From Bacteroides sp. (GTDB lineage Bacteria > Bacteroidota > Bacteroidia > Bacteroidales > Bacteroidaceae): a DNA stretch of 39,995 nucleotides. This document shows, in pieces, positions 10,293 through 39,857 of this stretch. How positions within the stretch are numbered: the first letter of the stretch is position 1; every line of letters begins with the position of its first letter. Below the pieces are notes generated by a model. That model saw only the letters and a list, made by a program, of their open reading frames with translations. It was not told where the DNA came from and searched no databases. A program made the position numbers and the translations under genes. The stretch spans positions 1 to 39,995 of the forward strand of contig JAFURM010000049.1 of assembly GCA_017471925.1 (NCBI GenBank). Reading direction: 5' to 3'.

Positions 10293-11666
10293 ATGAAAAA
10301 CATGAAGAAGTCAACCCTCCTTTTACTCGTCCTGACCGTTTTGACGGCCTGTACGTCCGGCAAGCGAGAGACAGAGCAGGTGAAATATTCCCAATGGATG
10401 GTGGAGTCGCACGGACTGGGCGATTTCTACTGCAACCGCAACCATCACGATCAACTGGGCGAAACGGTATGGGACTATGTATCGGGCCTGGTGGCCAACT
10501 CCGTTCTGAAAGCCTGGCAGATGTATCCCGAGAAGACGGCCTATTATGATGCCGTAAAGGCATTCGCCGACAACAGCACCAATGAAGACGGCAGCGTGAT
10601 ACGCAACAAGAAGGGAGCGTTTGCCCTCCGTCCCAGCAACATTGATGACCTGCCGGCCGGAAATGTCTATTTTGCCCTTTATCGGGAGGAGTTGCGTCGC
10701 GGCAACATTCAGGATGCCGAACGCTACAAGAATGCCGCCACCCTGATTCGCAACAAGCTGAAATATGATCACTCACGCATCGCCGAGGGTCTTCCCGGTG
10801 CAGGCGGATTCTTCCACAAGGCAGTCTACCCCAATCAGATGTGGTTAGACGGTCTCTTCATGGGGTCACCCATCTATGCACAGTGGCAGCACTGCTTCGG
10901 CAGCGAAAACCCTGAGGAGAACATGGAGAGTTGGAGCGACATTGCCCACCAGTTCAAGACCATCCACCACTACACCTATAATCCCGACGTACAGTTGAAC
11001 TATCATGCCTGGTCGGCCATGCCCGAAGACGAGAACTCTTTCTGGGCCAACCGCGAAGAGCCTTTCAAGGGATGCAGCAAAGAGTTTTGGGGCCGTGGCA
11101 TGGGATGGTATTTCGCCGCATTGGTCGACGTGCTGGAGTATATGCCTGAAGAGCATCCTGCATATGGCGACATCACCGCCATCCTGCAACAAGTGGCCGC
11201 AGGCCTGAAGCGTTGGCAAGATGCAGATTCCGGTGTATGGTATCAGTTGTTGCAATATGATGCCACCCGGACAGGCGACGGCGCAGGTGACCTTATGGCC
11301 GACGGCAAGCACTACAACGTAGGCACACAGGCCAACTACCTGGAAGCCTCCTGCTCCTGCATCTTCACCTATGCCTATCTGAAAGGCATCCGTCTGGGAC
11401 TGCTCGACAAGGAGACCTACATGCCGGTAGCCGAGAAAGCCTATCAAGGTCTGCTGAAAACCTTCATCCGTGAAAACAACGGCAAGATAGACATCGTGCA
11501 GACTTGCGCTTCGGCCGGACTCGGACCGGCTAAAGACCTCTCCCGCACCGGAACTGCCAACTATTACCTCTGCGGAAAAGACGTCACTATCACCCAAAAC
11601 GAAGGCAAGGCCATCGGCACTTTCATCCTCGCCTCCTTAGAATATGAGGCCCGTGAGGGCATCTGA
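10293..11666 (+). CDS. GH105 unsaturated rhamnogalacturonyl hydrolase-like lipoprotein
   Basis: This 457-residue protein has a lipoprotein signal ending LTACTSG (Cys20). The rest is an (alpha/alpha)6-barrel of the GH88/GH105 type. QMWLDGLFM carries the expected catalytic aspartate (Asp186). The conserved WGRGMGWYFAALVDVLEYMP segment follows at about 268-287. GH105 enzymes remove the unsaturated uronic acid that pectate or rhamnogalacturonan lyases leave at the non-reducing end. Here it opens the plus-strand PUL, with its own promoter and a terminator before SusC. A PL11-like lyase lies about 24 kb downstream, which could supply its substrate. The family call is firm; the exact uronide specificity is not visible. 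A second ATG at 10302 is equally usable. Confidence 0.88.
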   Translation: MKNMKKSTLLLLVLTVLTACTSGKRETEQVKYSQWMVESHGLGDFYCNRNHHDQLGETVWDYVSGLVANSVLKAWQMYPEKTAYYDAVKAFADNSTNEDGSVIRNKKGAFALRPSNIDDLPAGNVYFALYREELRRGNIQDAERYKNAATLIRNKLKYDHSRIAEGLPGAGGFFHKAVYPNQMWLDGLFMGSPIYAQWQHCFGSENPEENMESWSDIAHQFKTIHHYTYNPDVQLNYHAWSAMPEDENSFWANREEPFKGCSKEFWGRGMGWYFAALVDVLEYMPEEHPAYGDITAILQQVAAGLKRWQDADSGVWYQLLQYDATRTGDGAGDLMADGKHYNVGTQANYLEASCSCIFTYAYLKGIRLGLLDKETYMPVAEKAYQGLLKTFIRENNGKIDIVQTCASAGLGPAKDLSRTGTANYYLCGKDVTITQNEGKAIGTFILASLEYEAREGI

Positions 11667-11707
11667 CGAAGGATGAGAAACAAATGATACCTTATTTTAT
11701 AACATTT

Positions 11708-11740
11708 AAAGAGCGAGGTTAACCAACTCCGCTCTTTTTT
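11708..11740 (+). terminator. Intrinsic terminator after GH105
   Basis: AAAGAGCG pairs with CGCTCTTT, with a single bulged C and a short loop, followed by a T run. It separates GH105 from the SusC unit. Confidence 0.8.
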
Positions 11741-11776
11741 ATAACAAATGCAGGGCTTCACGTTTCTGCATTTTCA

Positions 11777-11784
11777 TACCTTTG
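11777..11784 (+). promoter_or_regulatory. Putative -7 box of the SusC operon
   Basis: TACCTTTG matches TAnnTTTG exactly. No TTTG lies at the normal upstream spacing, which suggests dependence on an activator such as the HTCS. A start near 11791 rules out the in-frame upstream start at 11748. Confidence 0.6.
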
Positions 11785-11849
11785 CCACGCATTACTATGA
11801 AAACGTGAATGCAAACGAAAAAATAATATTAACCATTAAACAATGTACA

Positions 11850-14800
11850 ATGAGAAAAACATTCTTTGAAAAGTGCATGAATTTAATTTTATGCCGTGTT
11901 GCATTGGCAATGCTACTTCTGTTGCCTGCAATCAGTAGCCTTCAGGCTAATCCTTCTCAAAGCAAGACCATTTCCGGCGTTGTTACATCTGCAACCGACA
12001 ACGAACCGTTGATTGGTGTCAGTGTGCAGGTGAAAGAAGCCGGTACAGGTGCAATCACAGACATCGACGGCCGCTACAGTGTGACCGCCAGTCAGGGACA
12101 GACATTGGTCTTCTCCTACATCGGCTACAAGACCCAGGAAATCAAGGTCGGTGCCTCCCCCACCATCAACGTAGTGTTGGCCGAGGACAACGAAATGTTG
12201 GACGAAGTGGTCGTTGTGGGCTACGGCACCATGAAGAAGAAGTTAGTGACAGGTGCCACTGTACAGGTAAAAGGTGAAAACATCGCCAAACTGAACACCA
12301 CCAACCCACTGCAGGCCATGCAGGGACAGACTCCCGGTGTGAGCATCACTTCCACTTCCGGCCAGCCGGGTGAAAGCATGAAGGTGCAAATCCGTGGTTT
12401 GGGAACCGTAGGCAACTCCGGTCCTCTCTACCTGATTGACGGTGTAGGCGGTGACATCTCCACCCTGAATCCTGCCGACATCGAAAGCATTGACGTGTTG
12501 AAGGACGCTGCTTCGGCTGCCATCTATGGTGCACAGGCCGCTAACGGTGTTGTATTGGTAACAACCAAGCAGGGTCGTGAAGGCAAGGCACAGGTTTCAT
12601 TCGATGCTTACTATGGCATCCAGAATGTAGCCCGCAAGGCCAACATGCTGAACGCCCAGCAATACATGGCCATCATGGACGAACAGTCACTGAACAGCGG
12701 TGGTGCCGTATACGACTGGGCCAATATCAAGTCCATCTATGATGCCAACGGCAACCTTGTTGATACAGACTGGATTGACACCATGTTCAAGGATGATGCC
12801 AAGACACAGAGCTATAGCCTCGGCGTGACAGGAGGTTCCAAAACTTCCACTTACGCCCTCTCTTTGGGATATATGCAGCAGGAAGGTATCGTAGGCGGTG
12901 CAGATGTTTCCAACTACGAGCGTTACAACTTCCGTATCAACTCTGAGCACAAACTGCTCAATGACATGCTGAAAGTAGGCGAACAAGTAAGCTTCGTCTA
13001 TAAAAAGAACACCGGTATCGGTGTAGGCAATCAATACAACAACACGTTGCGTGGTGCCTTTGGTACTTCTCCGATTACACCTGTCTACAGCGACAACAAC
13101 ATCTACGACTCTCCTTACAACGACACAAGCAACAGCGATTGGTACAACGGTGACGGCAACCCTTATGGAAGCATGATGACCAATACCAACAATGAGAACA
13201 AGAACGCAACATTCTCCGGTAACGTATATGCAGAGTTACAGCCCATCAAGAACCTGAAGATCAAGACCGTGTTCGGTGCAGTCTACGGTTCTTCCGAATA
13301 CCGCAGTTTCTCTCCGCTGTATCAGTTCTCCGTTTATTCCTATAATAATGCCAAGACCGGTGTTTCCCAGAACATGAACACCAGCCTGAGCATGACTTGG
13401 ACGAATACCGCTACTTACGATTGGGACATCAACGACCATCATTTCAATGCCCTGATTGGTATGGAAGCCTCTCGTTACGAAGGGACATACGTAGGAGCCA
13501 GCCAAGCCTCTTTGAAAGAAGGATTTGATGACTGGGACCACGCTTATATAGCCAATGGTACAGCCGCTTCTACCGCTGATGGTTTAGGAGCATCCGGCAA
13601 CCCCCACGATGAAAGCCGCACCGTTTCTTACTTCGGCCGTCTGGGCTGGAACTGGAAAGAGACCTATATGGTAAACGCCACCCTGCGTGCCGATGGTTCT
13701 TCCAAGTTTGCCCGTGGCAACCGTTTCGGTTATTTCCCCTCCATCTCTGCCGGTTGGACCATCACCAATGAAGCATTCATGGAGAGCACCAAGTCTTGGC
13801 TGGACTTCCTGAAAATCCGTGCAAGCTGGGGTCAGGTAGGTAATCAGAACATCAGCAACTATCAGTATCTGGCACCCGTAAAAAGCGCCAATACCCACTA
13901 CCTGTTTGGTAACTATGGTTATGACTCAGCTACTTCCGCCAGCTTATTGGCTTCTACCTGGGGTGCATTCCCCAGCCGTCTGCCGAATGCCGACATCAAG
14001 TGGGAAACATCCGAGCAGACCAACATTGGTTTCGATGCCCGTCTGTTGGACAGCCGCTTAGGCGTAAACTTTGACTTCTACATCAAGGAGACCAAAGACT
14101 GGTTGGTGGAAGCTCCTATCTTGGCAACTGCCGGTGCTGGTGCTCCCTACATTAACGGTGGTAGTGTGAAGAACACCGGTGTGGAAGTGGCCTTGACTTG
14201 GAATGACCAGATCGGTAAAGACTTCCACTACAACGTAGGTATCAACGGTTCTTACAACAAAAATGAAGTAGGCGAAATTCCCAATACCGACGGTATCATT
14301 CATGGTAACGCATACGAATTGTACGACAATGCACCCGAGTTCTATCGTGCCGAGAACGGCCATGCTATTGGTTACTTCTGGGGCTACAAGACTTGCGGTA
14401 TCTTCCAGAACCAGCAGGAAATCAGCGACTGGATTGCCGCCGGCAACGGTGTGTTGCAGTCCGATGTGAAGCCGGGCGATGTGAAGTATGTAGACTTCAA
14501 CCATGACGGTCTTATCAACAACGACGACAAGGTAGACTTGGGTAATGGTATTCCCGATTTCACCTTCGGCTTCAATCTGGGCTTTGACTACAAGGGCTTC
14601 GACTTCTCCTTGGTAGCCAACGGTGCTGTCGGACAGCAAATCGTACAGTCCTATCGCCAGCATGCCAATAAATATGCCAACTATACCACGGCCATCCTGG
14701 ACCGTTGGACTGGTGAAGGCACCAGCAACCGCATCCCGCGCGTAACTGAGCAGAACATCAACTGGCAGTTCTCTGACCTTTTCATTCAGGACGGTGACTA

Positions 14801-15032
14801 CCTGCGCATCAGCAACATCACGGTAGGTTATGACTTCAGCAAGTTGCTCAAGTGGAAAGGCATCAGCCAAGCCCGCCTCTATGCTCAGGTACAGAACGCC
14901 TTTACATTCACCAAATATGACGGTATGGATCCCGAAATCGGTTATGGTACTCAGGGATGGGTATCCGGAATTGACGTAGGTTACTATCCTCGTCCCCGTA
15001 CTGTTTTGGTTGGTTTAAATCTTAAATTCTAA
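11850..15032 (+). CDS. susC-like: SusC-like TonB-dependent glycan importer
   Basis: Starting at the ATG at 11850 gives 1060 residues and a good signal peptide (MRKTFFEKCMNLILCRVALA, then a hydrophobic core ending SSLQA). The frame is open back to 11748, but that start lies upstream of the likely promoter. After the signal comes a carboxypeptidase-regulatory-like domain (about 18-95), then the TonB-box-like LDEVVVVGYGT, the plug domain (about 115-230) and a 22-strand barrel to the end. It should form the outer-membrane pore, capped by the SusD encoded 11 bases downstream, and import oligosaccharides released by the surface GH5 enzymes. Substrate cannot be read from the sequence. Confidence 0.95.
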   Translation: MRKTFFEKCMNLILCRVALAMLLLLPAISSLQANPSQSKTISGVVTSATDNEPLIGVSVQVKEAGTGAITDIDGRYSVTASQGQTLVFSYIGYKTQEIKVGASPTINVVLAEDNEMLDEVVVVGYGTMKKKLVTGATVQVKGENIAKLNTTNPLQAMQGQTPGVSITSTSGQPGESMKVQIRGLGTVGNSGPLYLIDGVGGDISTLNPADIESIDVLKDAASAAIYGAQAANGVVLVTTKQGREGKAQVSFDAYYGIQNVARKANMLNAQQYMAIMDEQSLNSGGAVYDWANIKSIYDANGNLVDTDWIDTMFKDDAKTQSYSLGVTGGSKTSTYALSLGYMQQEGIVGGADVSNYERYNFRINSEHKLLNDMLKVGEQVSFVYKKNTGIGVGNQYNNTLRGAFGTSPITPVYSDNNIYDSPYNDTSNSDWYNGDGNPYGSMMTNTNNENKNATFSGNVYAELQPIKNLKIKTVFGAVYGSSEYRSFSPLYQFSVYSYNNAKTGVSQNMNTSLSMTWTNTATYDWDINDHHFNALIGMEASRYEGTYVGASQASLKEGFDDWDHAYIANGTAASTADGLGASGNPHDESRTVSYFGRLGWNWKETYMVNATLRADGSSKFARGNRFGYFPSISAGWTITNEAFMESTKSWLDFLKIRASWGQVGNQNISNYQYLAPVKSANTHYLFGNYGYDSATSASLLASTWGAFPSRLPNADIKWETSEQTNIGFDARLLDSRLGVNFDFYIKETKDWLVEAPILATAGAGAPYINGGSVKNTGVEVALTWNDQIGKDFHYNVGINGSYNKNEVGEIPNTDGIIHGNAYELYDNAPEFYRAENGHAIGYFWGYKTCGIFQNQQEISDWIAAGNGVLQSDVKPGDVKYVDFNHDGLINNDDKVDLGNGIPDFTFGFNLGFDYKGFDFSLVANGAVGQQIVQSYRQHANKYANYTTAILDRWTGEGTSNRIPRVTEQNINWQFSDLFIQDGDYLRISNITVGYDFSKLLKWKGISQARLYAQVQNAFTFTKYDGMDPEIGYGTQGWVSGIDVGYYPRPRTVLVGLNLKF

Positions 15033-15043
15033 TTGATAGCGAT

Positions 15044-16717
15044 ATGGAAAAGAAGAAATTCAATATATTATTGGCAGGAGTGCTGAGCTTGGGCTTGGGC
15101 ATGACCTCCTGCTCGGAAAGTTTCCTTGATGTAGAATCCAAGACCGAATCAAACACAGAGACTTTCTACAAGACCGAGAGTGATGCTTATCGTGCCCTGA
15201 TTGGTTGCTACGACGGTTGGCGTCAGACTTCATCGGCTATGGGAGTAGGCTTCTACTTAGGTTCTGAAGTCATGTCATATGAGTGCTTCGGTGCCACAGG
15301 TAATGGCGACGGCCGTGCCTATCAGGCCATTGACCGATTCGACATCGCCCAATCACCGGCCGACTTGAACATGTATGAAACCGATTGGAAGAACTATTAT
15401 GCCGCCGTTTACCGCTGCAATGAACTGATTGCTCACGAAGAGCAAATCCAGTGGAAAGAAGAAGGTAGCATGCACAGTACCTATATGGGCGAATGCCGCA
15501 CCATCCGCGCATTGCTCTACTTCGACATGGTACGTTTGTGGGGCAATATTCCTTTGTTTGAAGTTCCTGTAAACGAGAATCGCCCGCAGGTTTCTGCCGA
15601 CGAAGTGTATGCTTTGATTTTCAGTGACCTGAAATATGCCATCGAGAATATACCGGCAGACGCCTATCCCAAGGCAGATGCAGCCAACAATGACGGACAT
15701 GTCACCAAGTATGCCGCAGAAGCCCTCTTGGCCCGTGCCTACCTCTTCTATACCGGCTACTATGGCAAGGAACCGACTGGCGTAACCAAGGCCGAAGCTT
15801 TGGCTGCTTGCGAAGACATCATCGCCTCCGGTGAATTCTCTCTGATTCCTGAATTCAAGAACCTGTGGCCGGCCGCTTCTGCTGCAGTAGTAGATGCTCC
15901 TGCCGAAGGTGAAAAGGCCGATATGACCAAGCTTCTGAACACTTATGCCGGTGATGGTAATGCAGAGACCATCCTGGCCATGAAGTTTACCTCTTCTCAG
16001 GACTATAACGGCAACAACGACGGTAACCGTTGGCAGGTAATGTTAGGTATGCGTTCACTGAATGCCGCACCTTATGGTAAAGGCTGGGGTGCTTTGACCG
16101 TTAACCCCGCATTCGTTAATGAGTTTGCAGCAGGCGACACCCGCAAAGCTGCTTCTATCATCGATATGGCAGGTGAAGGCATTACTTCTGATGACGAATG
16201 GGCAGCCAGCTATAAGGATCAGCGTGAATATACAGGTTATGCTGTGAAGAAATACTCTCCTCTCTGTTTTGCAGATGGCACATCGGCATCCAAGGAAGAC
16301 GGTTCCGGTGACTTCCAGATTTCCAATCACCAGGATTATGTATTGATTCGCTATGCCGACGTATTGCTCATGGCAGCAGAACTGGGCAGCAGCAATGCAC
16401 AGGCCTACTTCAACGAAGTGCGCAACCGTGCCTTTGGCGGCAATGCTCCGGCTGTAACCGTCAGCAAGGAAAACATCATGAAGGAGCGTAAGTTTGAGTT
16501 CTGTTTTGAAAGCATCAACTATTGGGATTTGTTGCGCCAGGGTGTAGATGCAGCGGCCAACCAACTCGTTACCAACATCAAAGTGTATAGTGGAGGTAAT
16601 GAAGACGCTGTGGTCATCACTGCAGACAAAATGAAGTCTACTAATGGTTTATCTCAGATTCCTTACAACCAGATTACCCTTTCTGGCGGAACATTGAAAC
16701 AGAACCAAGGTTGGTAA
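15044..16717 (+). CDS. susD-like: SusD-like outer-membrane glycan-binding lipoprotein
   Basis: This 557-residue protein has a lipobox ending GMTSCSES (Cys23). It has the RagB/SusD layout: an N-terminal helical part with TPR-like helices (about 70-330) and the C-terminal SusD signature KERKFEFCFESINYWDLLRQG (near 480-500; stated here only as a signature). It partners with the SusC encoded just upstream and acts as the lid that presents glycan to the transporter. The following binding-protein gene starts 40 bases downstream, consistent with one operon. The length is typical for the family. Confidence 0.95.
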   Translation: MEKKKFNILLAGVLSLGLGMTSCSESFLDVESKTESNTETFYKTESDAYRALIGCYDGWRQTSSAMGVGFYLGSEVMSYECFGATGNGDGRAYQAIDRFDIAQSPADLNMYETDWKNYYAAVYRCNELIAHEEQIQWKEEGSMHSTYMGECRTIRALLYFDMVRLWGNIPLFEVPVNENRPQVSADEVYALIFSDLKYAIENIPADAYPKADAANNDGHVTKYAAEALLARAYLFYTGYYGKEPTGVTKAEALAACEDIIASGEFSLIPEFKNLWPAASAAVVDAPAEGEKADMTKLLNTYAGDGNAETILAMKFTSSQDYNGNNDGNRWQVMLGMRSLNAAPYGKGWGALTVNPAFVNEFAAGDTRKAASIIDMAGEGITSDDEWAASYKDQREYTGYAVKKYSPLCFADGTSASKEDGSGDFQISNHQDYVLIRYADVLLMAAELGSSNAQAYFNEVRNRAFGGNAPAVTVSKENIMKERKFEFCFESINYWDLLRQGVDAAANQLVTNIKVYSGGNEDAVVITADKMKSTNGLSQIPYNQITLSGGTLKQNQGW

Positions 16718-16757: not shown

Positions 16758-18569
16758 ATGAAATTGAAATCTTATATATATTCATTTGTTGCAAGCGTGA
16801 TGGTACTGTTCTCCGCTTGTACACCCGATGAGTACGATTTGGGTGCAAAGGAATTCGTGCCTGGAGATTTGGTAGAGGGTATCGCATACTCCATCACCCA
16901 TGATTCCAGCAATCCGAATATTGTATATTTGGAAAACTTATTGGGTACCGAATACACTCCGCTGTGGGAACATCCGCAAGGACGTAGCCAAGAACATAAG
17001 ATTACATTGAAAATGCCTTTCGAAGGTACTTATTCGGTTAAGTTTGGTATAGAAACCCGTGGAGGTGCTGTATATGGTCAGGAAACTACCTTTACAATTA
17101 ATTCCTTCTGTGCAGATTTTGTAACCGATGAGTTGTGGACAATGCTTACCGGTGGAGTTGGTAACAGTAAAAAATGGTTCATTGATTTGGACGAGAATGG
17201 AGTGAGCCGTTATTTCGCCGGTCCGGTATTCTTTAAGGGTACTGACGATTCTTGGGAAACCATAACCAATGGTGTTGTATTGGATGGTGCCGACTCTTGG
17301 GCATGGGATGCCGATTGGGGTGGTGTTGCCGGTTGGCAATTCGATGCAACAGCCATGGATTTTGGTTACATGGAATTTGACCTTAACGGTGGCTCTAACC
17401 TGACAACCGTACAAAATTCATTGGGACGTACTCAGACCGGTAAGTTTATGCTCGATGTCAATAATCATACCATTGCATTTACCGATGTTGAATTGTTGCA
17501 CGATGCGACCAATGACGCTCAAGTAGCTTCATGGACAGGTACCTTGAAACTGTTGTCGTTGACTGAAAATACCATGCAGATTGGTGTAATTAGAGCTTCC
17601 GATCCTTGTTTGTTATGTTTTAATTACATTTCGGAAGACTATTATAACAATTGGACTCCCCCGGCAGTAAACAATGATGTTGTTCCCGAACTGGCTACTG
17701 ATTGGAGAGATTATGTAGAGCCTAAGACGAATAAGGTAATTACTTATAAGCTTTCTGATGATACTCCGTTCGACTGGTGTAATTTGGACGGTTCTTTGAA
17801 GGCCGCTTCTGCAGCTTTCACTCCTGTAAGTGGCATAGAAGAAATTATTTTAGTCCTTAATAGCGGAACAAGAGAATATTCGTTTACCGATATCAGTGGT
17901 AACGAAACTACAGGTTCGTATACATTGAGCGACGAAGGTATCTATACATTCGAACCGGCTCTTCCTCAAATTACATTGTCGGCAGATGGTCGTGCCAAAC
18001 TGATGACCAATCCGGACAATTCCTTGCGAATCATGCAATACGAAGTGGATGATTTCTCCGGAGCGTTGACAGATTTGTGGCTTGCTTCGAAGGAAGTGGA
18101 CGATCAGGGAAACTTGTATCAATATATGGGTTATCATTGGGTACCTCAAGTAGCCGGTGCTACCAAACAATATAAAGCTACATTGAATTTCTTTGATACT
18201 GATTGGGTATTTATCTATAGCGATCCTGTATTCATTCCCGGAAATGGGGATTATACTCTTACTGTCAATGGTTCGAGCAGTGCCGCTTATGGTATGTATC
18301 TGGACATTGAAAAGATTTTGAAAGATTTTCCGAATATGGATGTAGCCATTAAGGATATCAAGGTAGATGGCACAAGCATTGAATTTGATGATACAGCTAT
18401 TGACAGAGGTATAGGTGATGCTGAAACAACAGCTCGTCGTTACATTCTTAATCCTTGGGGCGCTACAGCAGCCGATGGCCCTAAATATTCATTTACTTCG
18501 AGCATAGCTGTTACCATTACAGTAAATACAGATACCGGAACTCCATTTATTCCTGTTTCTGAAGAATGA
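16758..18569 (+). CDS. Surface glycan-binding lipoprotein, SusE position
   Basis: This 603-residue lipoprotein (signal ending LFSACTP, Cys21) is encoded directly after SusD. An N-terminal PKD or Ig-like domain (about 30-120) is followed by a larger beta-rich region (about 125-290) rich in tryptophan and tyrosine, for example DSWAWDADWGGVAGW. Two further beta-rich segments fill about 300-600. Such proteins typically hold polysaccharide at the cell surface. It does not look like the classical SusE or SusF. The gene is clearly AT-richer than its neighbours: a 60-base sample at 17701-17760 has 20 G+C, against 36 in a sample at 34501-34560. Binding function is inferred from position, lipidation and aromatic content. 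Confidence 0.75.
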   Translation: MKLKSYIYSFVASVMVLFSACTPDEYDLGAKEFVPGDLVEGIAYSITHDSSNPNIVYLENLLGTEYTPLWEHPQGRSQEHKITLKMPFEGTYSVKFGIETRGGAVYGQETTFTINSFCADFVTDELWTMLTGGVGNSKKWFIDLDENGVSRYFAGPVFFKGTDDSWETITNGVVLDGADSWAWDADWGGVAGWQFDATAMDFGYMEFDLNGGSNLTTVQNSLGRTQTGKFMLDVNNHTIAFTDVELLHDATNDAQVASWTGTLKLLSLTENTMQIGVIRASDPCLLCFNYISEDYYNNWTPPAVNNDVVPELATDWRDYVEPKTNKVITYKLSDDTPFDWCNLDGSLKAASAAFTPVSGIEEIILVLNSGTREYSFTDISGNETTGSYTLSDEGIYTFEPALPQITLSADGRAKLMTNPDNSLRIMQYEVDDFSGALTDLWLASKEVDDQGNLYQYMGYHWVPQVAGATKQYKATLNFFDTDWVFIYSDPVFIPGNGDYTLTVNGSSSAAYGMYLDIEKILKDFPNMDVAIKDIKVDGTSIEFDDTAIDRGIGDAETTARRYILNPWGATAADGPKYSFTSSIAVTITVNTDTGTPFIPVSEE

Positions 18570-18600: not shown

Positions 18601-20592
18601 ATGAAACTTAGATATTTATCAGGTACTCTTCTGTTAGCTATAGGAATGTTCGTCTCTTCTTGTGAAGACGATACGGAAGACTATACCATCAGAACTGGTG
18701 AAATCGTATCCGAGATTACGACAGGAGCAGCAGATGCTACGGCTGTTTCTGCCCAAATCCAAGGAACAGTAAAGGATTTGACATTGGTATCATCGTCCTC
18801 TTATGAAGTAGGTGTCATTTACAGCACCAATGAGAATCCTACTGCCAGTGGAACAAAGAAAGTAGGCAGTGTGGACGAGAACGGAAATGTTACAGTGACG
18901 CTCACGGGACTCACGACAGGGGTTACCTACTATTATGCCACCTATGTAACTCTTCAGAAAAAGGTGAACTACTTTGGTGAAGTGAAGTCTTTTGTAGCCA
19001 CACAAGTGAAGGTTACGACAGCCGATGCGGCAGACGTTACAGCTACCAAGGCTAAATTTGAGGCAACGATAACAGGAACTGACGGCGTTGAGACTGCCAC
19101 AGGCGTTAAGGTTTCATTGACCGAAGCGGAAGTAAAAGAAGGCAATGAATATGCGTTGGGTCTGGTGGAATCCTTGTTACCGGGCACTACCTACTATTAT
19201 GTAGCATACGCGAAAGTGGGTGAAAGCTACATATACGGCGAAACCAAATCATTCACGACTGCCAGTCAGGTTATGGAATATATAGATTTAGGGTTGAGCG
19301 TGCTTTGGGCTAAATGCAACATTGGAGCCGAAGCCGAACAAGAGAGTGGTGCAACCTTTGCATATGGTGACGATGTGGTATCTCGCCTGAGCATTGATGT
19401 AGACACTCCGATGAGCAGCCAAATGCCCACCGAAGCCCACTTTGCCGAATTGGTAGCAAACACCACACAAGAATGGACTACCGTGGAGGGCGTAGAAGGT
19501 ATGCGATTCACTGCCAACAATGGCAACAGCATATTTATGCCGGCTACCAATGGTCAGGGGCTCTATTGGAGTGCTACTTCCAACAGTACCAATGCCGCTT
19601 ATGGCTCTACGCTGAACTTTGCAAGCACCAACGCCAAGGTAGGAACATCTACCATTGAATCGACTCTCGCTGTTCGCTCGGTTCGTCCGTATGCCGTGCT
19701 GAATCCGAATATGGACAACTTGGTATGGGGCGATTTGGAAGGCAATGGTAGGTTACGTATTGAAATCTACAACATGTATGGTGCAACAGCTAACGCTCCC
19801 GCAGTAGATCCTTCTACCATAAAGTTCAATAAGAATATGGTTGTCAGCTTCACATTAGGAGGTGTTACCGACAATTTGAAAGAAGGTGCAGCTGGTTCTT
19901 ATGTAGCCGGTTTGGAATATGCCGATGCCGATTGGGAACCGTCCTATTGGTCAGGACTCAGTATGGGACAATATGAAGCCAATGTAACCGGTGACGGAAC
20001 TTACACCGTATGGATGGAGACAACCGCTTTGACCGAGGGCGCTGCTGTATTCTGTGTAGACATTGCGAACCTGATGGCAGACATCGTAGACCCGTTATTG
20101 GTTACAGTAACAGTAGACGCAATCAAATTGGATGCCGATGTAGAACAGGCAACAAACGCCGATGCTATACAATTCCAAAATAAAGATGGAAACGGAACTG
20201 ATGGACGCATTGAGATTTACAATGAATACGGCAATGGTGGTGCGGTTGCTCCGCAGTTCTATAACGACAAACTTCGATTCAACGGACTGATGTTGGTAGA
20301 CTTCACCATCTCTGGCATTGACGGAAACCTGATTGACGGAGCTGCTGCCAGCTACAAGACAGAACTGAGTTTTGCTGAAGCTGATTGGGATACTCAGTAT
20401 TGGGGTGGTGCCGGCTATGGCGATACGACAGTAACCGGTGACGGAACCTATCAGGTATACGCTTATCTGAATGGTAACTGTGAAGGTGCTGTAGTATGGA
20501 CTATTGAACTGTATGGCTTGTGGAAAGACCTCGTGGACACTTCAAAGGTAAATGTAACAATCAATAAAGTCGTTACTCCCGGCAAATATTGA
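18601..20592 (+). CDS. Surface lipoprotein with Fn3-like, FISUMP-like and duplicated C-terminal domains
   Basis: This 663-residue lipoprotein has a signal ending FVSSCEDD (Cys21). Two Fn3-like repeats occupy about 33-222, each ending in a YYYA(T/Y)-type strand. A FISUMP-like domain follows (about 225-370), with IDLGLSVLWAKCNIGA at its start, the PTEAHFAEL segment, and RSVRPY at its end. The last 290 residues are two copies of one domain (about 372-518 and 525-663), aligned by RIEIYN-YG, VSFTLGG/VDFTISG, ADW..-YW and VTGDGTY. The duplicated domain is aromatic-rich and is the most likely carbohydrate-binding part. It is the last gene before a strong terminator. Glycan binding is inferred; I do not know a characterised protein with this order of domains. 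Confidence 0.7.
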   Translation: MKLRYLSGTLLLAIGMFVSSCEDDTEDYTIRTGEIVSEITTGAADATAVSAQIQGTVKDLTLVSSSSYEVGVIYSTNENPTASGTKKVGSVDENGNVTVTLTGLTTGVTYYYATYVTLQKKVNYFGEVKSFVATQVKVTTADAADVTATKAKFEATITGTDGVETATGVKVSLTEAEVKEGNEYALGLVESLLPGTTYYYVAYAKVGESYIYGETKSFTTASQVMEYIDLGLSVLWAKCNIGAEAEQESGATFAYGDDVVSRLSIDVDTPMSSQMPTEAHFAELVANTTQEWTTVEGVEGMRFTANNGNSIFMPATNGQGLYWSATSNSTNAAYGSTLNFASTNAKVGTSTIESTLAVRSVRPYAVLNPNMDNLVWGDLEGNGRLRIEIYNMYGATANAPAVDPSTIKFNKNMVVSFTLGGVTDNLKEGAAGSYVAGLEYADADWEPSYWSGLSMGQYEANVTGDGTYTVWMETTALTEGAAVFCVDIANLMADIVDPLLVTVTVDAIKLDADVEQATNADAIQFQNKDGNGTDGRIEIYNEYGNGGAVAPQFYNDKLRFNGLMLVDFTISGIDGNLIDGAAASYKTELSFAEADWDTQYWGGAGYGDTTVTGDGTYQVYAYLNGNCEGAVVWTIELYGLWKDLVDTSKVNVTINKVVTPGKY

Positions 20593-20625
20593 TTAAGGAA
20601 CATCCAATAAAGTACACTTAACCTC

Positions 20626-20670
20626 AATGGCTGCATACTCTCTTCGGAGGGATGCAGCCATTGCTGTTTT
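20626..20670 (+). terminator. Intrinsic terminator of the SusCD/binding-protein operon
   Basis: An 11-base perfect stem (AATGGCTGCAT at 20626-20636 and its complement at 20652-20662) with a loop that can extend it is followed by GCTGTTTTT. A second small hairpin, GCTGTT/AACAGC, follows at 20663-20679. Confidence 0.9.
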
Positions 20671-20690
20671 TAGAACAGCACCTACTTGTT

Positions 20691-25860: not shown

Positions 25861-25900
25861 GTAAGCATGGCTTGTGAAGGTCGTGCTTACATTTTTTTTG
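25861..25900 (+). terminator. Intrinsic terminator of the GH5 operon
   Basis: GTAAGCATG pairs with CGTGCTTAC (nine pairs including one G-U) around a 12-base loop, followed by ATTTTTTTTG. Confidence 0.85.
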
Positions 25901-25928
25901 TCCTACTGGAATAAAAACGTACCGGTTT

Positions 25929-30105: not shown

Positions 30106-30153
30106 CAAAATATACCCCTATCAGAAACAACCCGCACCGTATAACAATCAAAC

Positions 30154-30188
30154 AAGCCCTTTCCGATAACAAAGGAAAGGGCTTTTCT
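30154..30188 (+). terminator. Intrinsic terminator of the HTCS gene
   Basis: An 11-base perfect stem, AAGCCCTTTCC with GGAAAGGGCTT, has a nine-base loop and a short T-rich tail. Confidence 0.85.
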
Positions 30189-30201
30189 GTGTGCGAATAG
30201 C

Positions 30202-33198: not shown

Positions 33199-33238
33199 CA
33201 TCAAGCATCACATGTATAACCCTGTTACCCCCATCCTT

Positions 33239-35770
33239 ATGAAGAACATCTGTCTCTCCATTATCCTCCCGCTGCTGCTCGGCCTGCTGAGCGGCTGCAC
33301 GACCCCGACGGGAGGCACCGAGGAACGTACGCAAGATTTCACCCGCGACTGGACGTTCCGCCTGGGCGACGACTCTCTGGCCGCCCTTCCCGACTATGAC
33401 GACTCGGCCTGGCGCCGGCTGAACCTGCCCCACGACTGGGCCATAGAGGGAGACTTCTCCCAAGACCATCCATCGGGCACCGGCGGAGGTGCACTGCCCG
33501 GCGGTATAGGCTGGTACCGCAAGCATTTCCATGTGGACCGGGCCGATGCCGGCAAGCAGCTGCGCATCGACTTCGACGGAGTCTACATGAACAGTACGGT
33601 CTACATCAACGGCCATCGGCTCGGCACCCGCCCCTATGGCTACATCTCCTTCAGCTATGACCTGACACCCTACATCAAGTGGGGCGAGGAGAACGTGGTG
33701 GCCGTGCGTGTGGACAACGCCGAGCAGCCCAACTCCCGTTGGTACTCGGGCTGCGGCATCTATCGCAACGTGTGGCTCACCAAGCTGAACCCCGTCCATG
33801 TGGCCCGCTGGGGCACTTATGTCACCACTCCCGCCGTCTCTGCAGCCGAAGCCACGGTGCGGATAGAGACCACCCTGCAATCCGCCCTGACAGAGAGCGC
33901 ACAGGGCGTGCTCGTCACGGAGATTCTCCGGGCCGACGGCACGACGGCCGTCAAGGCCGAGGAGCGTTTCAGTTTTGCTCCCGGAAAGTCACTCCCCCGA
34001 CTGAGCCAGACGCTGGACCAGCAGCTGACCCTCCCCGCCCCCCACTTGTGGAGCGTGGACGACCCTTATTTATATAAGGTGAAGAGTACGGTCTGGGTGG
34101 ACAGCCTCCTCATGGATACCTACTACACCCCGTTGGGCGTGCGCACCTTCAGCTTCGATGCCGACAAGGGCTTTACGCTGAACGGACAGCCCATGAAGAT
34201 AAACGGCGTGTGCCAGCACCACGACCTGGGCTGCTTGGGTGCCGCCGTCAACACCCGCGCCATAGAACGCCAGCTGCAGATACTGAAGGAGATGGGCTGC
34301 AACGGCATACGCTGTGCGCACAATCCGCCTGCACCCGAACTGCTGGACCTCTGCGACCGCATGGGCTTCATCGTCATGGACGAGACCTTCGACATGTGGC
34401 GCAAGAAGAAGACGGCCCACGACTATGCCCGCTACTTCAACGAGTGGCATGAGCAGGACCTGAAGGAGCTCGTGACCCGCGACCGCAATCACCCCTCCGT
34501 CTTCATCTGGAGCATCGGCAACGAGGTGCTGGAGCAGTGGAGTGATGCCCGTGCAGACACCCTCAGCCTGGAAGAGGCCAACCTCATCCTGAACTTCGGA
34601 CACAGTGCCGACATGCTGGCCAAGGAGGGAGAACTGTCCGTCAACTCCTTGCTCACCCGGAAACTGGTGGAGATGACCAAGGCCCTGGACCCCACCCGTC
34701 CCGTCACTGCGGGCTGCAACGAGCCGAGCCCCGACAGCCACCTCTTCCGCTCGGGAGCGTTGGACATCATCGGCTTCAACTATCACGACGACTGGTTTGC
34801 CGGCGTGCCCCGCAACTTCCCCGGCAAACCCTTCATCGTCACCGAGAGTGTGTCGGCCCTGATGACACGCGGCTTCTACCGCATGCCGAGCGACTCCATC
34901 GTCATCTGTCCGGAGCGTTGGGACAAGCCCTACTATGACGCCTCCTTCTCCTGCTCCTCCTATGACAACTGCCACGTGCCCTGGGGCAACCGCCATGAAG
35001 GCACCATGAAGCACGTGAAGAACAACGACTTCATCAGCGGCCAGTACATCTGGACCGGCTTCGACTACATCGGCGAACCCACCCCCTATGGCTGGCCTGC
35101 CCGCAGCAGCTACTTCGGCATCGTGGACCTGGCCGGATTCCCCAAGGACGTCTACTACATGTACCAGAGCGAATGGCGGCCCGACCTGCAGGTGCTCCAT
35201 CTCTTCCCCCACTGGAACTGGAAGGAGGGAGAGGAGGTAGACCTATGGGCCTACTACAACAACGCCGACGAGGTGGAGCTCTTCCTGAACGGTGTCTCCC
35301 AGGGTGTCCGCAGCAAGCAGGGGGATGAGTTCCATGTCATGTGGCGCGTTCCCTTCGCTCCCGGCAGCGTGAAGGCCGTGGCCCGCAAGGGCGGAGAAGT
35401 GGTGGCCGAGCAGGAGATACGTACGGCCGGTGAGCCTGCCGCCATCCGCCTGACCCCCGACCGTCAGGAGCTGCAGGCCGATGGAAAAGACCTGAGCTTC
35501 GTCACCGTGGAGGTGGTGGACAAAGAGGGCAACCTCTGTCCCTGGGCCGAGAATGACATCCGCTTCAGTGTGGACGGAAACGGATTCATCGCCGGCGTAG
35601 ACAACGGCAGTCCCATCTCCATGGAGCGTTTCAAGGACAATCACCGCAAAGCCTTCTATGGCAAGTGTCTAATCGTGGTGCAGAACAATGGCAAGCCGGG
35701 CAGGATGACCCTGACCGCCATTAGTGACCAACTGCAACCGGCCTGCTGCGAACTTAAATGCAAGAAATAA
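33239..35770 (+). CDS. GH2 glycosidase, probably beta-galactosidase, lipoprotein
   Basis: The start at 33239 gives 843 residues and a clean lipoprotein signal (ending LLSGCTTP); the upstream ATG at 33212 adds nine residues before it. The order is a sugar-binding jelly roll (about 35-200), an Ig-like domain (about 205-310), a TIM barrel (about 315-600) and C-terminal DUF4982 and Ig-like domains. The acid/base is Glu429 in WSIGNEVLEQW and the nucleophile is Glu536 in FIVTESVSAL. GH2 also includes beta-glucuronidases and mannosidases. Beta-galactosidase is favoured by the DUF4982-type C-terminus and by the xyloglucan-like locus, where galactose side chains need removal. Confidence 0.82.
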   Translation: MKNICLSIILPLLLGLLSGCTTPTGGTEERTQDFTRDWTFRLGDDSLAALPDYDDSAWRRLNLPHDWAIEGDFSQDHPSGTGGGALPGGIGWYRKHFHVDRADAGKQLRIDFDGVYMNSTVYINGHRLGTRPYGYISFSYDLTPYIKWGEENVVAVRVDNAEQPNSRWYSGCGIYRNVWLTKLNPVHVARWGTYVTTPAVSAAEATVRIETTLQSALTESAQGVLVTEILRADGTTAVKAEERFSFAPGKSLPRLSQTLDQQLTLPAPHLWSVDDPYLYKVKSTVWVDSLLMDTYYTPLGVRTFSFDADKGFTLNGQPMKINGVCQHHDLGCLGAAVNTRAIERQLQILKEMGCNGIRCAHNPPAPELLDLCDRMGFIVMDETFDMWRKKKTAHDYARYFNEWHEQDLKELVTRDRNHPSVFIWSIGNEVLEQWSDARADTLSLEEANLILNFGHSADMLAKEGELSVNSLLTRKLVEMTKALDPTRPVTAGCNEPSPDSHLFRSGALDIIGFNYHDDWFAGVPRNFPGKPFIVTESVSALMTRGFYRMPSDSIVICPERWDKPYYDASFSCSSYDNCHVPWGNRHEGTMKHVKNNDFISGQYIWTGFDYIGEPTPYGWPARSSYFGIVDLAGFPKDVYYMYQSEWRPDLQVLHLFPHWNWKEGEEVDLWAYYNNADEVELFLNGVSQGVRSKQGDEFHVMWRVPFAPGSVKAVARKGGEVVAEQEIRTAGEPAAIRLTPDRQELQADGKDLSFVTVEVVDKEGNLCPWAENDIRFSVDGNGFIAGVDNGSPISMERFKDNHRKAFYGKCLIVVQNNGKPGRMTLTAISDQLQPACCELKCKK

Positions 35771-35781
35771 GACATAACGAT

Positions 35782-37620
35782 ATGAAGAAGAAGTTTTTCT
35801 ATCTCTTGGCAACGGGATGCATCGTCGCATCCCTTGCCTATGCCCAAGACCCCAGGGAAAGATGTTATTACTATGAAATCCTTGAACCAAGCCACGAAGA
35901 GAAGCCCCAAGTGGAAGGACATGCCCAAGAACGTGTTGCAGAAAAACTTGGGCGTGCCTTGACGGCGGCATTGGCTCAAGACGGCCAATCGGTCTACCTC
36001 AGTTGGCGCATGCTGCAGTCAGATGCAGCGTCCACGGTTTTCCATGTCTATCGGGAGGCCAAGGGAAAGGTTCGTCGGCTGACTTCAAAAGCCCTGTCGA
36101 AGACCTGCGACTTCATAGACAAAGCACCACAAGCCGAAGCTGTCTATTGGGTGGAAGCTGTCGCAAGAAAAGGCTCCAAAGCCGCTTCAGAGAAAATCAG
36201 TGTCAGCCTGGACAACCTGAAAGGATATACCAGCATCCGCATAAGAAACGGTGAAAAGCCGGGCAAACTGGGCATCGCCGACCTGAATGGAGACGGCCTG
36301 TATGACTACATCCTCCGCACTCCATCGTCCAACGTGGATCCCGGCTCACGAATAGGAGACAAGACAGGAAAGACCTATCAAATATCAGCCTACCTGAATG
36401 ACGGCACCTACCTGTGGACCCACGACATGGGTCAGGGCATCGAACCCGGCGTATGGTATTCGCCCTATGTAGCCTATGACTTCAACGGCGACGGAAAGGC
36501 TGAAGTAGCCATGAAAGCCACCGGTCCCGATGCCGTGAGAGACGAAAACGGTCACGTAGGCAGTGGAAGCGAGTACCTGATTGTATTGGACGGAATGACC
36601 GGTAAGGAGATTGACCGCGTGGAGTGGCCTCAACGCAACTATCGCTATGGCAACCTGAACCGTCAGAACCGTAATCAGATTGGGGTCGCCTATCTGGATG
36701 GCAAGACACCCTATATCCTGGCCGCACGAGGCACCTACAAGCTGATGGTAGTGGACGCATGGATGCTCAAAGAGGGCAAACTGCAACAAGCCTGGCACTG
36801 GGACGGGGATGAAGAGAACCCGGTGGTACGCAGCATGGGAGCACACAATATGGTGGCCGGCGACGTGGACAATGACGGACGGGATGAGATACTGTTAGGG
36901 TCATGCATGCTGGATGACAATGGAACCCTCCTGTGGTCTTCCGGACTGGGACATAGCGACAAAGCCTACCTGTGCAAATTAAAACCCGACGCAGAGGGCT
37001 TGCAGGTCTTTATGGTCAGCGAGCCTAAGAAAGAAGACGGACGCGGCGTTTCCGTCGTCGATGCAGCCACAGGAAAGCTGGTGTGGGGAATTGGCCAGAC
37101 CACTTATCATGTGGGCGACGGAATGGTCACCGATTTCGACCCTGCGCATCCCGGCCTGGAATGTTTTGCCAGCGAAGACCGCAAGGGAGGAAGCACGGAC
37201 AAGTATCTGCTGACAGCCGACGGTACTCGCCTGAATGTAGCTCAAGCAGACATTCCCAATTGCCGGAATTGGGTCTGGTGGGACGCGGACTTATTGCGCG
37301 AAACGCTGAAAGGCGATGATGTGCGCTGGGGCGCCGGCTCTGCATCGAACACACGCAAACAGAGTGTGGTGAAGTGGAAAGGGGAACAATGTACTTCAGG
37401 CATTGAAGGCGACATCTTGCTACTGGGCGACATGGATGGAGACTGGCGGGAAGAGATTGTCACCTCCTTACCGGGGGAAGTGCGCGTGTACCGCACCAAT
37501 ATTCCGGCCCGTGACCGTCGGGTGACGCTGATGCAAGACCCCTTGTACCGTAGCTACATTACCCACCGCAGCATGGGTTATCCCCAAGCGCCGGTCCCTT
37601 CATATTATTTAGGCGAATAA
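35782..37620 (+). CDS. Divergent PL11-family rhamnogalacturonan lyase-like protein
   Basis: The chosen ATG at 35782 gives 612 residues and a type I signal peptide ending ASLAYAQ. The frame also opens at 35758, inside the GH2 gene. An Fn3-like N-terminal domain (about 35-150, EKLGRALTAA and VYLSWRML) leads into an eight-bladed propeller, with calcium-type loops DLNGDGLYD (about 167), DFNGDGKAE (about 233), DVDNDGRDE (about 362) and DMDGDWREE (about 549). This is the PL11 layout and length. Several motifs I expect in characterised PL11 enzymes differ: HGD is HSD, a DVGRG-like motif reads HVGDG, and the NGTK segment reads TSGIEGD. It may therefore have an altered or lost lyase activity. It has no lipobox, so it is probably periplasmic or secreted. 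Confidence 0.75.
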   Translation: MKKKFFYLLATGCIVASLAYAQDPRERCYYYEILEPSHEEKPQVEGHAQERVAEKLGRALTAALAQDGQSVYLSWRMLQSDAASTVFHVYREAKGKVRRLTSKALSKTCDFIDKAPQAEAVYWVEAVARKGSKAASEKISVSLDNLKGYTSIRIRNGEKPGKLGIADLNGDGLYDYILRTPSSNVDPGSRIGDKTGKTYQISAYLNDGTYLWTHDMGQGIEPGVWYSPYVAYDFNGDGKAEVAMKATGPDAVRDENGHVGSGSEYLIVLDGMTGKEIDRVEWPQRNYRYGNLNRQNRNQIGVAYLDGKTPYILAARGTYKLMVVDAWMLKEGKLQQAWHWDGDEENPVVRSMGAHNMVAGDVDNDGRDEILLGSCMLDDNGTLLWSSGLGHSDKAYLCKLKPDAEGLQVFMVSEPKKEDGRGVSVVDAATGKLVWGIGQTTYHVGDGMVTDFDPAHPGLECFASEDRKGGSTDKYLLTADGTRLNVAQADIPNCRNWVWWDADLLRETLKGDDVRWGAGSASNTRKQSVVKWKGEQCTSGIEGDILLLGDMDGDWREEIVTSLPGEVRVYRTNIPARDRRVTLMQDPLYRSYITHRSMGYPQAPVPSYYLGE

Positions 37621-37646
37621 CAAGGTAAACACATAACAACAACGAT

Positions 37647-39857
37647 ATGAAAAGAGTATATACGACCCTGAGCCTGTTGCTGGCCTGCTGCCTGAACGCG
37701 GTGCTGGCACAAACCCCGCTCTACCTGGACGACAAGCAGCCGATAGAGGTGCGCGTGCAGGACGCGCTGCAGCGCATGACACTGGAAGAGAAAGTACGCC
37801 TGAGCTATGCACAGAGCAAGTTCAGCAGTCCCGGCGTGCCCCGCCTGGGCATCCCCGAACTGTGGTGGAGCGACGGTCCCCACGGCGTGCGCATGGAGAT
37901 AAACTGGAACGACTGGGGACATGCCGGATGGACCAACGACAGCGTGACGGCCTTCCCCGCACTGACGGCCCTGGCCGCCACCTGGAATCCGGCCATGTCC
38001 GCCGCCTATGGCAAGGCTCTGGGCGAGGAGGCACGCTATCGCGAGAAGGATGTCATGCTGGGACCCGGCGTGAACATCTACCGCACACCCCTGAACGGAC
38101 GCAACTTCGAGTATATGGGCGAAGACCCCTTCCTGGCCAGCCGCATGGTGGTGCCCTATATCCGGGAGATGCAGAAGAACGGCGTGGCCGCCTGCGTGAA
38201 ACATTATGCACTGAACAACCAAGAGCAATGGCGCGGCCACATCGACGTGCAGCTGAGCGACCGTGCCCTGCATGAAATCTACCTGCCGGCCTTCCGAGCT
38301 GCCATCGTGGAGGGCGGGGCGTGGAGCATCATGGGTGCCTACAACAAGATTCGCGGCACGCATGCCTGCCACCATGACCTGATGCTGAACCGCATCCTGA
38401 AACAGGAATGGAACTTCGATGGTGTGGTAGTGACCGACTGGGGAGGTGCGCACGACACCCGTGAGGCCGCCCTGAACGGCCTGGACGTGGAGATGGGCTC
38501 CTACACCAACGGTCTTACTTCGGAAAGCGATTTCGGCTATGACGACTACTACCTGGGCCATGCCTACCTGAAGCTGGTCAAGGCAGGAGAGGTACCCCTA
38601 TCGGTCGTAGACGACAAGGCAGCACGCATCCTGCGCCTCATCTTCCGCACCGCCATGAACCGCAACAAGCCCTATGGCACTCTCTGCACCGAGGAACACT
38701 ATGCCACGGCCGAAGCGATTGGCAACGAAGGCATCGTGCTGCTGAAGAACAGTCCCGTCTCCAAAAAAGCGGCTCCCCTGCTTCCCCTGAGGGAGGACTA
38801 CCGGAGCATCCTGGTGGTGGGCGACAATGCCACCCGACGGCTGACCGAAGGGGGCGGTTCGTCCGAGCTGAAGGTAAAGGAGATGGTCTCCCCGTTAGAC
38901 GGCTTGCGTGCTCTCTATGGTGACAGGGTGAAGTATGCCAAGGGTTATACGTCCGGCCGACCCATGTATGGACGGGTGAAGGAGATTCCGCAGCAGGTGA
39001 CAGACTCGCTCCGTGCCGAGGCCGTGAGCCTGGCCCGTGAGGCAGAAGTGGTCATCATGATAGGCGGACTGAACAAGAACCATTTCCAGGACTGTGAAGG
39101 AGGCGACCGCCAGCAGTATGGCCTGCCCTTCGGACAGGACAAGCTGATAGAGGAACTCCGGGCCGCCAACAAGAATCTGGTGCTGGTGTTGCTCAGCGGC
39201 AATGCCGTGGAGATGCCCTGGGTGGAGCAGGTGCCCGCCATTGTTCAGGGATGGTACCTGGGCTCCATGGGCGGCAAGTCCATAGCCAACGTGCTGAGCG
39301 GACGGGTGAACCCCAGCGGCAAGCTACCCTTCTCCTTCCCTGCAAGGCTGACCGACTGTGGCGCACACGCCTTTGACGCCCTCAGCTATCCGGGCGACAG
39401 CATCAGGCAGGAGTATAAGGAGGATATCCTCGTGGGCTACCGTTGGCACGACACCAAGAAAGTTCCGGCCCTGTTCCCCTTCGGACACGGACTGAGCTAT
39501 ACCACCTTTACTTATGGCAAGCCGGTGCTTTCGACCCGGCAGATGGTGCCCGGTGGAGAGGTGGAGGTATCGGTCAGCGTGAAGAACAGCGGCAACGTAG
39601 CCGGCAAGGAAGTGGTTCAGCTCTATGTGGGCGACGAGAAGTGTTCCGTCCTGCGCCCCGTGAAGGAGCTGAAGCAGTTCCGCAAGATTGCATTGCAGGC
39701 CGGCGAGGAACAGACAGTGACCTTCACCCTTACCGAGGACGACCTGAAGTTCTATGACGAGACCTCCGCCACATGGAAAGCCGAGTCGGGCAAGTTCAAG
39801 CTCTATATCGGCTCCTCATCTACGGACATCCGCGCAGTGGAAACATTGAAGCGTTGA
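37647..39857 (+). CDS. GH3 beta-glucosidase-like enzyme
   Basis: This 736-residue protein has a signal peptide ending AVLAQTP. A TIM-barrel domain (about 30-345) carries the nucleophile Asp264 in VVVTDWGGA and the KHYALNNQE segment. The alpha/beta sandwich (about 370-590) carries the acid/base Glu484 in the CEGGDR motif. A C-terminal Fn3-like domain (about 645-730) completes the usual three-part GH3. In xyloglucan loci GH3 enzymes remove glucose exposed after alpha-xylosidase action; beta-xylosidase is the main alternative. It starts 26 bases after the PL11-like gene, so it is cotranscribed. No terminator is visible after it, and the locus probably continues. Confidence 0.88.
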   Translation: MKRVYTTLSLLLACCLNAVLAQTPLYLDDKQPIEVRVQDALQRMTLEEKVRLSYAQSKFSSPGVPRLGIPELWWSDGPHGVRMEINWNDWGHAGWTNDSVTAFPALTALAATWNPAMSAAYGKALGEEARYREKDVMLGPGVNIYRTPLNGRNFEYMGEDPFLASRMVVPYIREMQKNGVAACVKHYALNNQEQWRGHIDVQLSDRALHEIYLPAFRAAIVEGGAWSIMGAYNKIRGTHACHHDLMLNRILKQEWNFDGVVVTDWGGAHDTREAALNGLDVEMGSYTNGLTSESDFGYDDYYLGHAYLKLVKAGEVPLSVVDDKAARILRLIFRTAMNRNKPYGTLCTEEHYATAEAIGNEGIVLLKNSPVSKKAAPLLPLREDYRSILVVGDNATRRLTEGGGSSELKVKEMVSPLDGLRALYGDRVKYAKGYTSGRPMYGRVKEIPQQVTDSLRAEAVSLAREAEVVIMIGGLNKNHFQDCEGGDRQQYGLPFGQDKLIEELRAANKNLVLVLLSGNAVEMPWVEQVPAIVQGWYLGSMGGKSIANVLSGRVNPSGKLPFSFPARLTDCGAHAFDALSYPGDSIRQEYKEDILVGYRWHDTKKVPALFPFGHGLSYTTFTYGKPVLSTRQMVPGGEVEVSVSVKNSGNVAGKEVVQLYVGDEKCSVLRPVKELKQFRKIALQAGEEQTVTFTLTEDDLKFYDETSATWKAESGKFKLYIGSSSTDIRAVETLKR

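Follow-up and report, generated by a model that had tools for sequence, protein, structure and literature searches.

A PL11-like protein with an altered active site in a xyloglucan-type utilisation locus of Bacteroides sp.

Introduction

The closest described system to the locus studied here is BoXyGUL of Bacteroides ovatus. It and its relatives contain SusC/SusD, GH5, GH31, GH2 and GH3 genes. The same set is found on a contig of 39,995 nucleotides (JAFURM010000049.1, contig C27 below) of Bacteroides sp., assembly GCA_017471925.1, an 89%-complete draft genome of 59 contigs. This whole contig is what we call the window. Unlike BoXyGUL, the window has three GH5 genes, a hybrid two-component regulator (HTCS) in the middle of the locus and a gene for a PL11-like protein between GH2 and GH3. 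A GH105 gene precedes SusC.

The known PL11 lyases used for comparison, YesW, YesX and the protein in PDB entry 4cag, are rhamnogalacturonan lyases. The roles of their Arg, Lys, Tyr and calcium ligands are described in PMC8787155. In Bacteroides stercorirosoris, a PL11-like gene lies between GH106 and GH28 in an operon of rhamnogalacturonan I (RG-I) and rhamnose type, and the flanks that were read carry no xyloglucan markers. For GH105 the reference is YteR, in which Asp143 is presumably a catalytic residue.

On balance we lean towards a joint explanation: a standard xyloglucan locus has received a relocated PL11-like gene of RG-I/rhamnose type, the chemistry of the protein has changed, and GH105 is not its partner. 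Annotation at the family level would give "rhamnogalacturonan lyase" and "pectin-xyloglucan PUL" (polysaccharide utilisation locus), and both labels may be wrong. Xyloglucan is a mostly neutral polymer, and this context makes the specificity of the PL11-like protein directly testable.

The active site of the PL11-like protein

The PL11-like protein has the sequence domains and the propeller fold of PL11. The carboxylate-stabilising Arg and Lys are not present: compared with YesW, Arg452 is changed to Asp (Asp454 in the window protein), Lys535 to Glu (Glu550) and Asp449 to His (H451). The calcium ligands (H363, H399, D401 and E422) and the stacking tyrosine (Y608) are kept. Canonical PL11 status was rejected, given the loss of Arg and Lys. 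In the structure model of the protein, the mean pLDDT (predicted local distance difference test) is 69.9, and confidence is weak at residues 231-233 and 449-451.

The same change is seen in many related proteins. We divided 78 PL11-type proteins into canonical (Arg452 and Lys535, n=30) and variant (His449, n=45) by the site columns themselves; with this definition, His449 is found in none of the canonical proteins, and Arg452 and Lys535 in one variant each. Two fragments and one protein, L104, fall in neither class. The calcium ligands are kept in all 75 canonical and variant proteins (45/45 of the variants) and the tyrosine in 74, the exception being a gap in one variant (Tyr595 in 44/45). 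Two columns outside the class definition also differ: position 229 is Glu in 44 of 45 variants versus Arg in 23 of 30 canonical proteins, and position 233 is Trp in 45/45 versus His in 25/30. Further, Trp233, Trp290, Trp393 and Thr326 are conserved in every variant, while position 452 shows 12 residue types over the 45 sequences.

The 45 variants form one clade in a FastTree tree (support 0.998). In a fast IQ-TREE run, the SH-like approximate likelihood-ratio support (SH-aLRT) is 77.2 for the variants alone and 99.7 when L104 is included, with labels that may be off by one node after rerooting. The lineage is found in Bacteroidales, Lentisphaeria, Spirochaetes, Sumerlaeia and Phycisphaerales. 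L104 (2543-4204) is a Sumerlaeota PL11 that keeps Arg, has Lys changed to Gln and branches at the base of the variant clade; it is a possible intermediate between the two classes. Among the matches listed in the open-licence literature, there was neither a PL11 lineage lacking Arg and Lys nor a xyloglucan locus that includes a PL11 gene.

A signal sequence, recognised by eye, suggests that the PL11-like protein is periplasmic. Classical lyase action, beta-elimination at a free galacturonate, is doubtful, since the carboxylate clamp is lost. Our best guess from the residues is a calcium-dependent enzyme with changed chemistry. It would keep the PL11 fold, the calcium site and the tyrosine, with the basic uronate clamp exchanged for acidic residues and a conserved histidine and tryptophans at further positions. 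Chemistry or substrate would be changed, probably away from beta-elimination at free galacturonate, and the protein would most likely serve as an accessory enzyme acting on substituents of imported oligosaccharides.

Such a change is plausible because it has precedents. In GH130, the hydrolases are marked by carboxylic residues in place of the basic ones that bind phosphate (PMC4599007). Among GH145-type propellers, related proteins are hydrolases or lyases, and in the lyase FoRham1 a His is the base and an Arg the neutraliser (PMC8377490). It is possible, if doubtful, that the whole variant lineage is an unrecognised family, a calcium-dependent propeller that has given up beta-elimination of uronates for another chemistry and was recruited here from RG-I to xyloglucan. 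The other chemistry could perhaps be hydrolysis of a neutral linkage by the conserved histidine and acidic residues. Should the variants prove to be a distinct enzyme, mislabelled pectin lyases would be present in many genomes.

Genomic neighbourhoods of PL11-like relatives

We studied the neighbourhoods of variant relatives with about 45% identity and up. The 32 neighbourhoods come from three relative searches (12/12, 13 new and 7/8); places in G621:C22, G591 and G676 were left unread, and L097 was omitted as it is the same contig as G074:C72. In each genome, the searches scored only a handful of top candidates (for instance 3 of 12), so relatives may be missing. To assign markers, genes within 15 kb, or within the available flank, were compared with a small set of references under cut-offs fixed in the script. 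Some flanks are short (one side of G333 has 0.6 kb, and G178 has 12 bases).

No xyloglucan marker was found in any of the 32 neighbourhoods read. RG-I/rhamnose markers are present in 14/32, a count that is possibly low since the filter skips any hit closer to the gene than 50 bases, and that includes one case (G524) with a SASA-type esterase alone, at 38%. The first-pass annotation had assigned GH105 and the PL11-like protein to families known for RG-I; the Pfam domains (PF07470 for the former, PF21348 and PF18370 for the latter) bear this out, and for the PL11-like gene the 14 neighbourhoods agree with it. It had also named consistent separation of close homologues from GH5/GH31 genes as evidence against a composite locus, and in the neighbourhoods read this separation is what we find for both proteins (xyloglucan markers in 0/32 for PL11-like, 0/21 for GH105, see below).

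The four nearest relatives found, at 72-74% identity, are in G656, G632, G481 and B. stercorirosoris. In three of these genomes the order is a SASA-GH105 fusion, GH106, PL11-like, GH28, an FGGY kinase, rhamnose isomerase and a rhamnose transporter; in G481 it is a SASA protein, GH106, PL11-like, GH28 and GH105. The following relatives are among the 18 that have neither kind of marker nearby. The relative in G522 adjoins a PcRGLX-like protein and a GH43, and from equal gene lengths we infer the same neighbours in G550. In G108 the relative lies among GH127, GH30 and GH115 genes. G522 and G550 are of the same genus as the window, and their PL11-like genes are about 560 and 850 kb from the nearest xyloglucan-type GH31. 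At E 1e-200, no GH31 match was found in either G656 or G632.

A few arrangements can be noted in addition. The SASA-type esterase fused to GH105 (L095 4509-7040, L096 2638-5163) adjoins or lies near a variant PL11 gene. In Tannerella sp. (L094 7130-10144), a single open reading frame (ORF) of 1004 amino acids holds a variant PL11 domain and a GH105 domain. In L091 (G068:C22:31001-51000), at 1031-12830, a xyloglucan-type GH31 (61%) and a GH3 (70%) directly adjoin two PL11 genes, both canonical and encoded on the other strand.

Probable relocation of the PL11-like gene

Two trees place the window gene, together with that of G388, beside the B. stercorirosoris-type operon group. The genome of the window itself has on contig C57 a GH105, a GH28 and a second GH105 gene side by side, a cluster similar to this operon but with neither GH106 nor a PL11-like gene between them. 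The GH105 of this cluster is 77% identical to the fused GH105 domain of B. stercorirosoris and the GH28 is 82% identical. A GH106 (71-73%) is on contig C47, and the only other PL11 found, on C34, is canonical; no second PL11-like copy was found in the 89%-complete draft.

These comparisons support the view that the PL11-like gene came from an RG-I context. Given the cluster that lacks the gene and the placement in the trees, it is likely that the gene left an RG-I/rhamnose-type operon and was inserted between GH2 and GH3. Intermediate steps are possible, because the sister gene in G388 stands solo beside FtsH.

The xyloglucan core

The gene content expected of a xyloglucan locus is present: SusC/SusD, an endo-xyloglucanase-type GH5, a GH31 alpha-xylosidase, GH2 and GH3. 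The first-pass annotation had read the three GH5, GH31, GH2 and GH3 as a xyloglucan-type set, and we agree, since the GH31 is BoGH31A-like and the gene order matches the loci of G078 and G182. There the order SusC, SusD, hypA, GH5, HTCS, GH31, GH2 recurs at 36-71% identity (36% for hypA, 51-52% for HTCS). GH3 also follows in G078, while the contig of G182 stops in GH2. Judged by genes and order, the core is an ordinary Bacteroidales xyloglucan utilisation locus. In eight other GH31 neighbourhoods that were read, GH2 and GH3 are adjacent in four (G078, G023, G165 and G315), and both GH105 and the PL11-like gene are absent from all eight.

A pathway can be predicted. Surface GH5 enzymes would cleave the xyloglucan backbone, SusC/SusD would take up the pieces, GH31, GH2 and GH3 would strip them, and the HTCS would sense them. 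The GH31 aligns with BoGH31A over almost its entire length; the PA14 domain earlier ascribed to it is below the Pfam threshold (19.8 vs 24 bits). All three GH5 proteins have Pfam E-values of 4e-57 or better, and one of the PDB relatives of the middle GH5, 3zmr, we take to be BoGH5A. The first and the third GH5 genes share two DNA stretches (D1 and D2) at 72-75% and look like tandem duplicates. The best PDB relatives of this pair (6wqy and 4yhe) differ from those of the middle GH5, so other beta-glucans may be substrates of the locus as well.

The GH105 gene

The GH105 protein carries the YteR catalytic residues including Asp143, a position that is Asn in PDB entry 2gh4. In all, five of six compared positions are kept (H132, D143, H189, R213 and W217). 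It differs from YteR at the sixth (85) and is longer by about 20 residues around position 323. As the active-site residues are kept, the protein is likely an unsaturated-uronyl hydrolase. The other option of the first-pass annotation, that both proteins have unknown specificities, is a better fit for the PL11-like protein.

The closest GH105 relatives have 74-79% identity and are found in seven genomes. We read 15 of the 24 places other than the window, plus all six places of at least 56% identity. None of these 21 has a xyloglucan marker within 15 kb or the available flank, and four have RG-I-type markers, at 26-30% identity. A GH3-type gene adjoins the relative in G414 and G438, and an HTCS-type gene in G144; most other neighbours have no match in the marker reference set. 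In the window, no other pectin genes are seen beside GH105. A fixed role of GH105 in xyloglucan loci was rejected, given the lack of linkage among the 21 relatives and its absence from the eight other GH31 neighbourhoods.

A predicted terminator-like hairpin at 11708-11741 speaks against a transcript shared by GH105 and SusC. Its six-U run forms a weak tail, with three of the six paired in the stem. GH105 is probably a transcription unit of its own. The first-pass annotation saw in GH105 and the PL11-like protein a coherent pair, a lyase and a hydrolase of the unsaturated ends, at the two ends of the locus. The lost clamp residues and the hairpin speak against the pair. The PL11-like gene does not close the locus either, as GH3 and then another lipoprotein-type ORF follow it. 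With the relatives unlinked as well, we rejected the pair as one functional module. GH105 would instead be a separately transcribed neighbour.

Alternative explanations

Covalent links between xyloglucan and RG-I occur in plant walls, and the locus could serve such a composite substrate, with the PL11-like protein as a working lyase and GH105 removing the unsaturated ends. Both families fit RG-I, the GH105 active site is intact, RG-I/rhamnose markers accompany the PL11-like lineage in 14/32 neighbourhoods, and in G068 a GH31 and a GH3 stand directly beside two canonical PL11 genes. We nevertheless consider this quite unlikely: the lyase-site Arg and Lys have become Asp and Glu, the hairpin separates GH105 from SusC, linkage to xyloglucan is absent among the relatives (0/32 and 0/21), and recognised pectin genes are near only 4/21 GH105 relatives. 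If the site is not that of a lyase, it could belong to a pseudo-enzyme, a non-catalytic propeller that holds oligosaccharides in the periplasm. The lost clamp and the free variation at position 452 in the variant clade agree with this, but the conservation of the calcium ligands, Tyr595, Trp233, Trp290, Trp393 and Thr326 in our reading exceeds what binding alone would need, which makes it unlikely. We hold it to be equally unlikely that the protein hydrolyses a neutral motif, such as terminal galactose or arabinose, that occurs in the side chains of both RG-I and xyloglucan. This would be a special case of changed chemistry that requires no composite polymer, and the exchange of basic residues for carboxylic and aromatic ones suits it, although the model is weak at exactly the sites of interest. 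Finally, the gene could be a passenger that plays no part in the use of xyloglucan, or its position an artefact of assembly, as might be feared for a single case in a draft of 59 contigs. The gene begins 11 bp past the GH2 stop and ends 26 bp ahead of GH3, and a like start-site leader (cataac...cgatATG) precedes both it and GH3; this tight fit makes a passenger or chimaera very unlikely.

Several observations weigh against the explanation we favour, a relocated gene whose product has changed chemistry. Other residues could compensate for the loss of Arg and Lys and keep lyase action possible; Lys402 is invariant in 11 aligned proteins, though not in more distant variants. One variant (G223) retains the Arg and one the Lys. 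Several relatives have GH105 beside them, and in Tannerella the two are fused, which suits production of unsaturated ends there. Of the 32 neighbourhoods, 18 show neither RG-I/rhamnose nor xyloglucan markers. The solo position of the nearest sister, beside FtsH in G388, means that the route of relocation was not direct, and the branching support is modest (50.8 when the four members of the operon group are taken by themselves). Further, there is one locus in one incomplete genome, where the join rests on the assembly.

Gene layout and predicted transcription units

All gene families named by the first-pass annotation were recovered on the forward strand between 10293 and 39857 by gene calls and Pfam, in the order given in Table 1. 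TamB and Omp85-type genes lie upstream of GH105 and are divergent. The locus may extend further to the right, as the lipoprotein-type ORF at 39939 runs off the contig. Three starts were chosen by eye: 11850 for SusC, which is likelier than the start of the longest ORF at 11748, 30242 for GH31 and 35782 for the PL11-like gene.

Table 1. Genes and predicted terminator-like hairpins of the locus, with the evidence for each.
Feature	Coordinates	Strand	Evidence
GH105 (GH88 superfamily), YteR-type active site, lipoprotein-like signal (by eye)	10293..11666	+	PF07470 E 7e-73
Hairpin between GH105 and SusC	11708..11741	+	-12.9 kcal/mol, z -4.9 for 11704-11745
SusC-like TonB-dependent transporter	11850..15032	+	PF13715, PF07715
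SusD-like glycan-binding lipoprotein	15044..16717	+	PF07980, PF14322
hypA lipoprotein, surface glycan-binding-protein-like	16758..18569	+	no Pfam match; N-terminus similar to PDB 5jmb, E 1.4e-37
hypB lipoprotein	18601..20592	+	no Pfam match; weak N-terminal match to NF049889
Hairpin, five-U run	20626..20671	+	-32.5 kcal/mol, z -6.9 for 20622-20680
First GH5, two BACON domains	20942..22741	+	PF00150, PF13004; PDB relatives include xyloglucanase 2jep
Middle GH5, two BACON domains, nearest Cel5D (5oyc)	22738..24483	+	PF00150; 5oyc E 2e-112, 3zmr E 8e-78
Third GH5, without BACON	24490..25755	+	PF00150
Hairpin before HTCS, eight-U run	25861..25898	+	-18.8 kcal/mol, z -5.6 for 25856-25902
HTCS hybrid two-component regulator	25993..30105	+	Reg_prop, HisKA, Response_reg, HTH_18
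Hairpin before GH31, short (weak) U-run	30154..30186	+	-18.6 kcal/mol, z -5.1 for 30150-30192
GH31 alpha-xylosidase, BoGH31A-type	30242..33136	+	PF01055 E 3e-97; BoGH31A (5jou) 1557 bits
GH2, beta-galactosidase-type	33212..35770	+	PF02836; NCBIfam GalB above cut-off
PL11-like protein, altered active site	35782..37620	+	PF21348 E 6e-97; PF18370 E 2e-14
GH3, beta-glucosidase-type	37647..39857	+	PF00933, PF01915
Start of further lipoprotein-type ORF, cut by contig end	39939..39995	+	sequence

The predicted hairpins suggest separate units, with boundaries that follow from them: GH105, SusC to hypB, the three GH5 genes, HTCS, and GH31 to GH3 and beyond. Within these units we infer co-transcription, including that of the PL11-like gene in the GH31-GH2-GH3 operon. 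A consensus scan found two terminator-like sites against 3.0 expected by chance and five promoter-like sites against 3.0. It missed the hairpin between GH105 and SusC, probably owing to a mismatch, and folding detected it. Upstream of GH105, a leader forms a hairpin at 10150-10205 (-24 kcal/mol, z -3.8) with a five-U run.

Upstream of the first GH5, at 20691-20777 of the window, there are three imperfect copies of GATGAAGTATATATTAAA, about 23 bases apart. The 15-base core of these repeats has no exact copy among 228 loci. By chance, 0.01 copies would be expected where three are found, and they could be candidate regulator sites.

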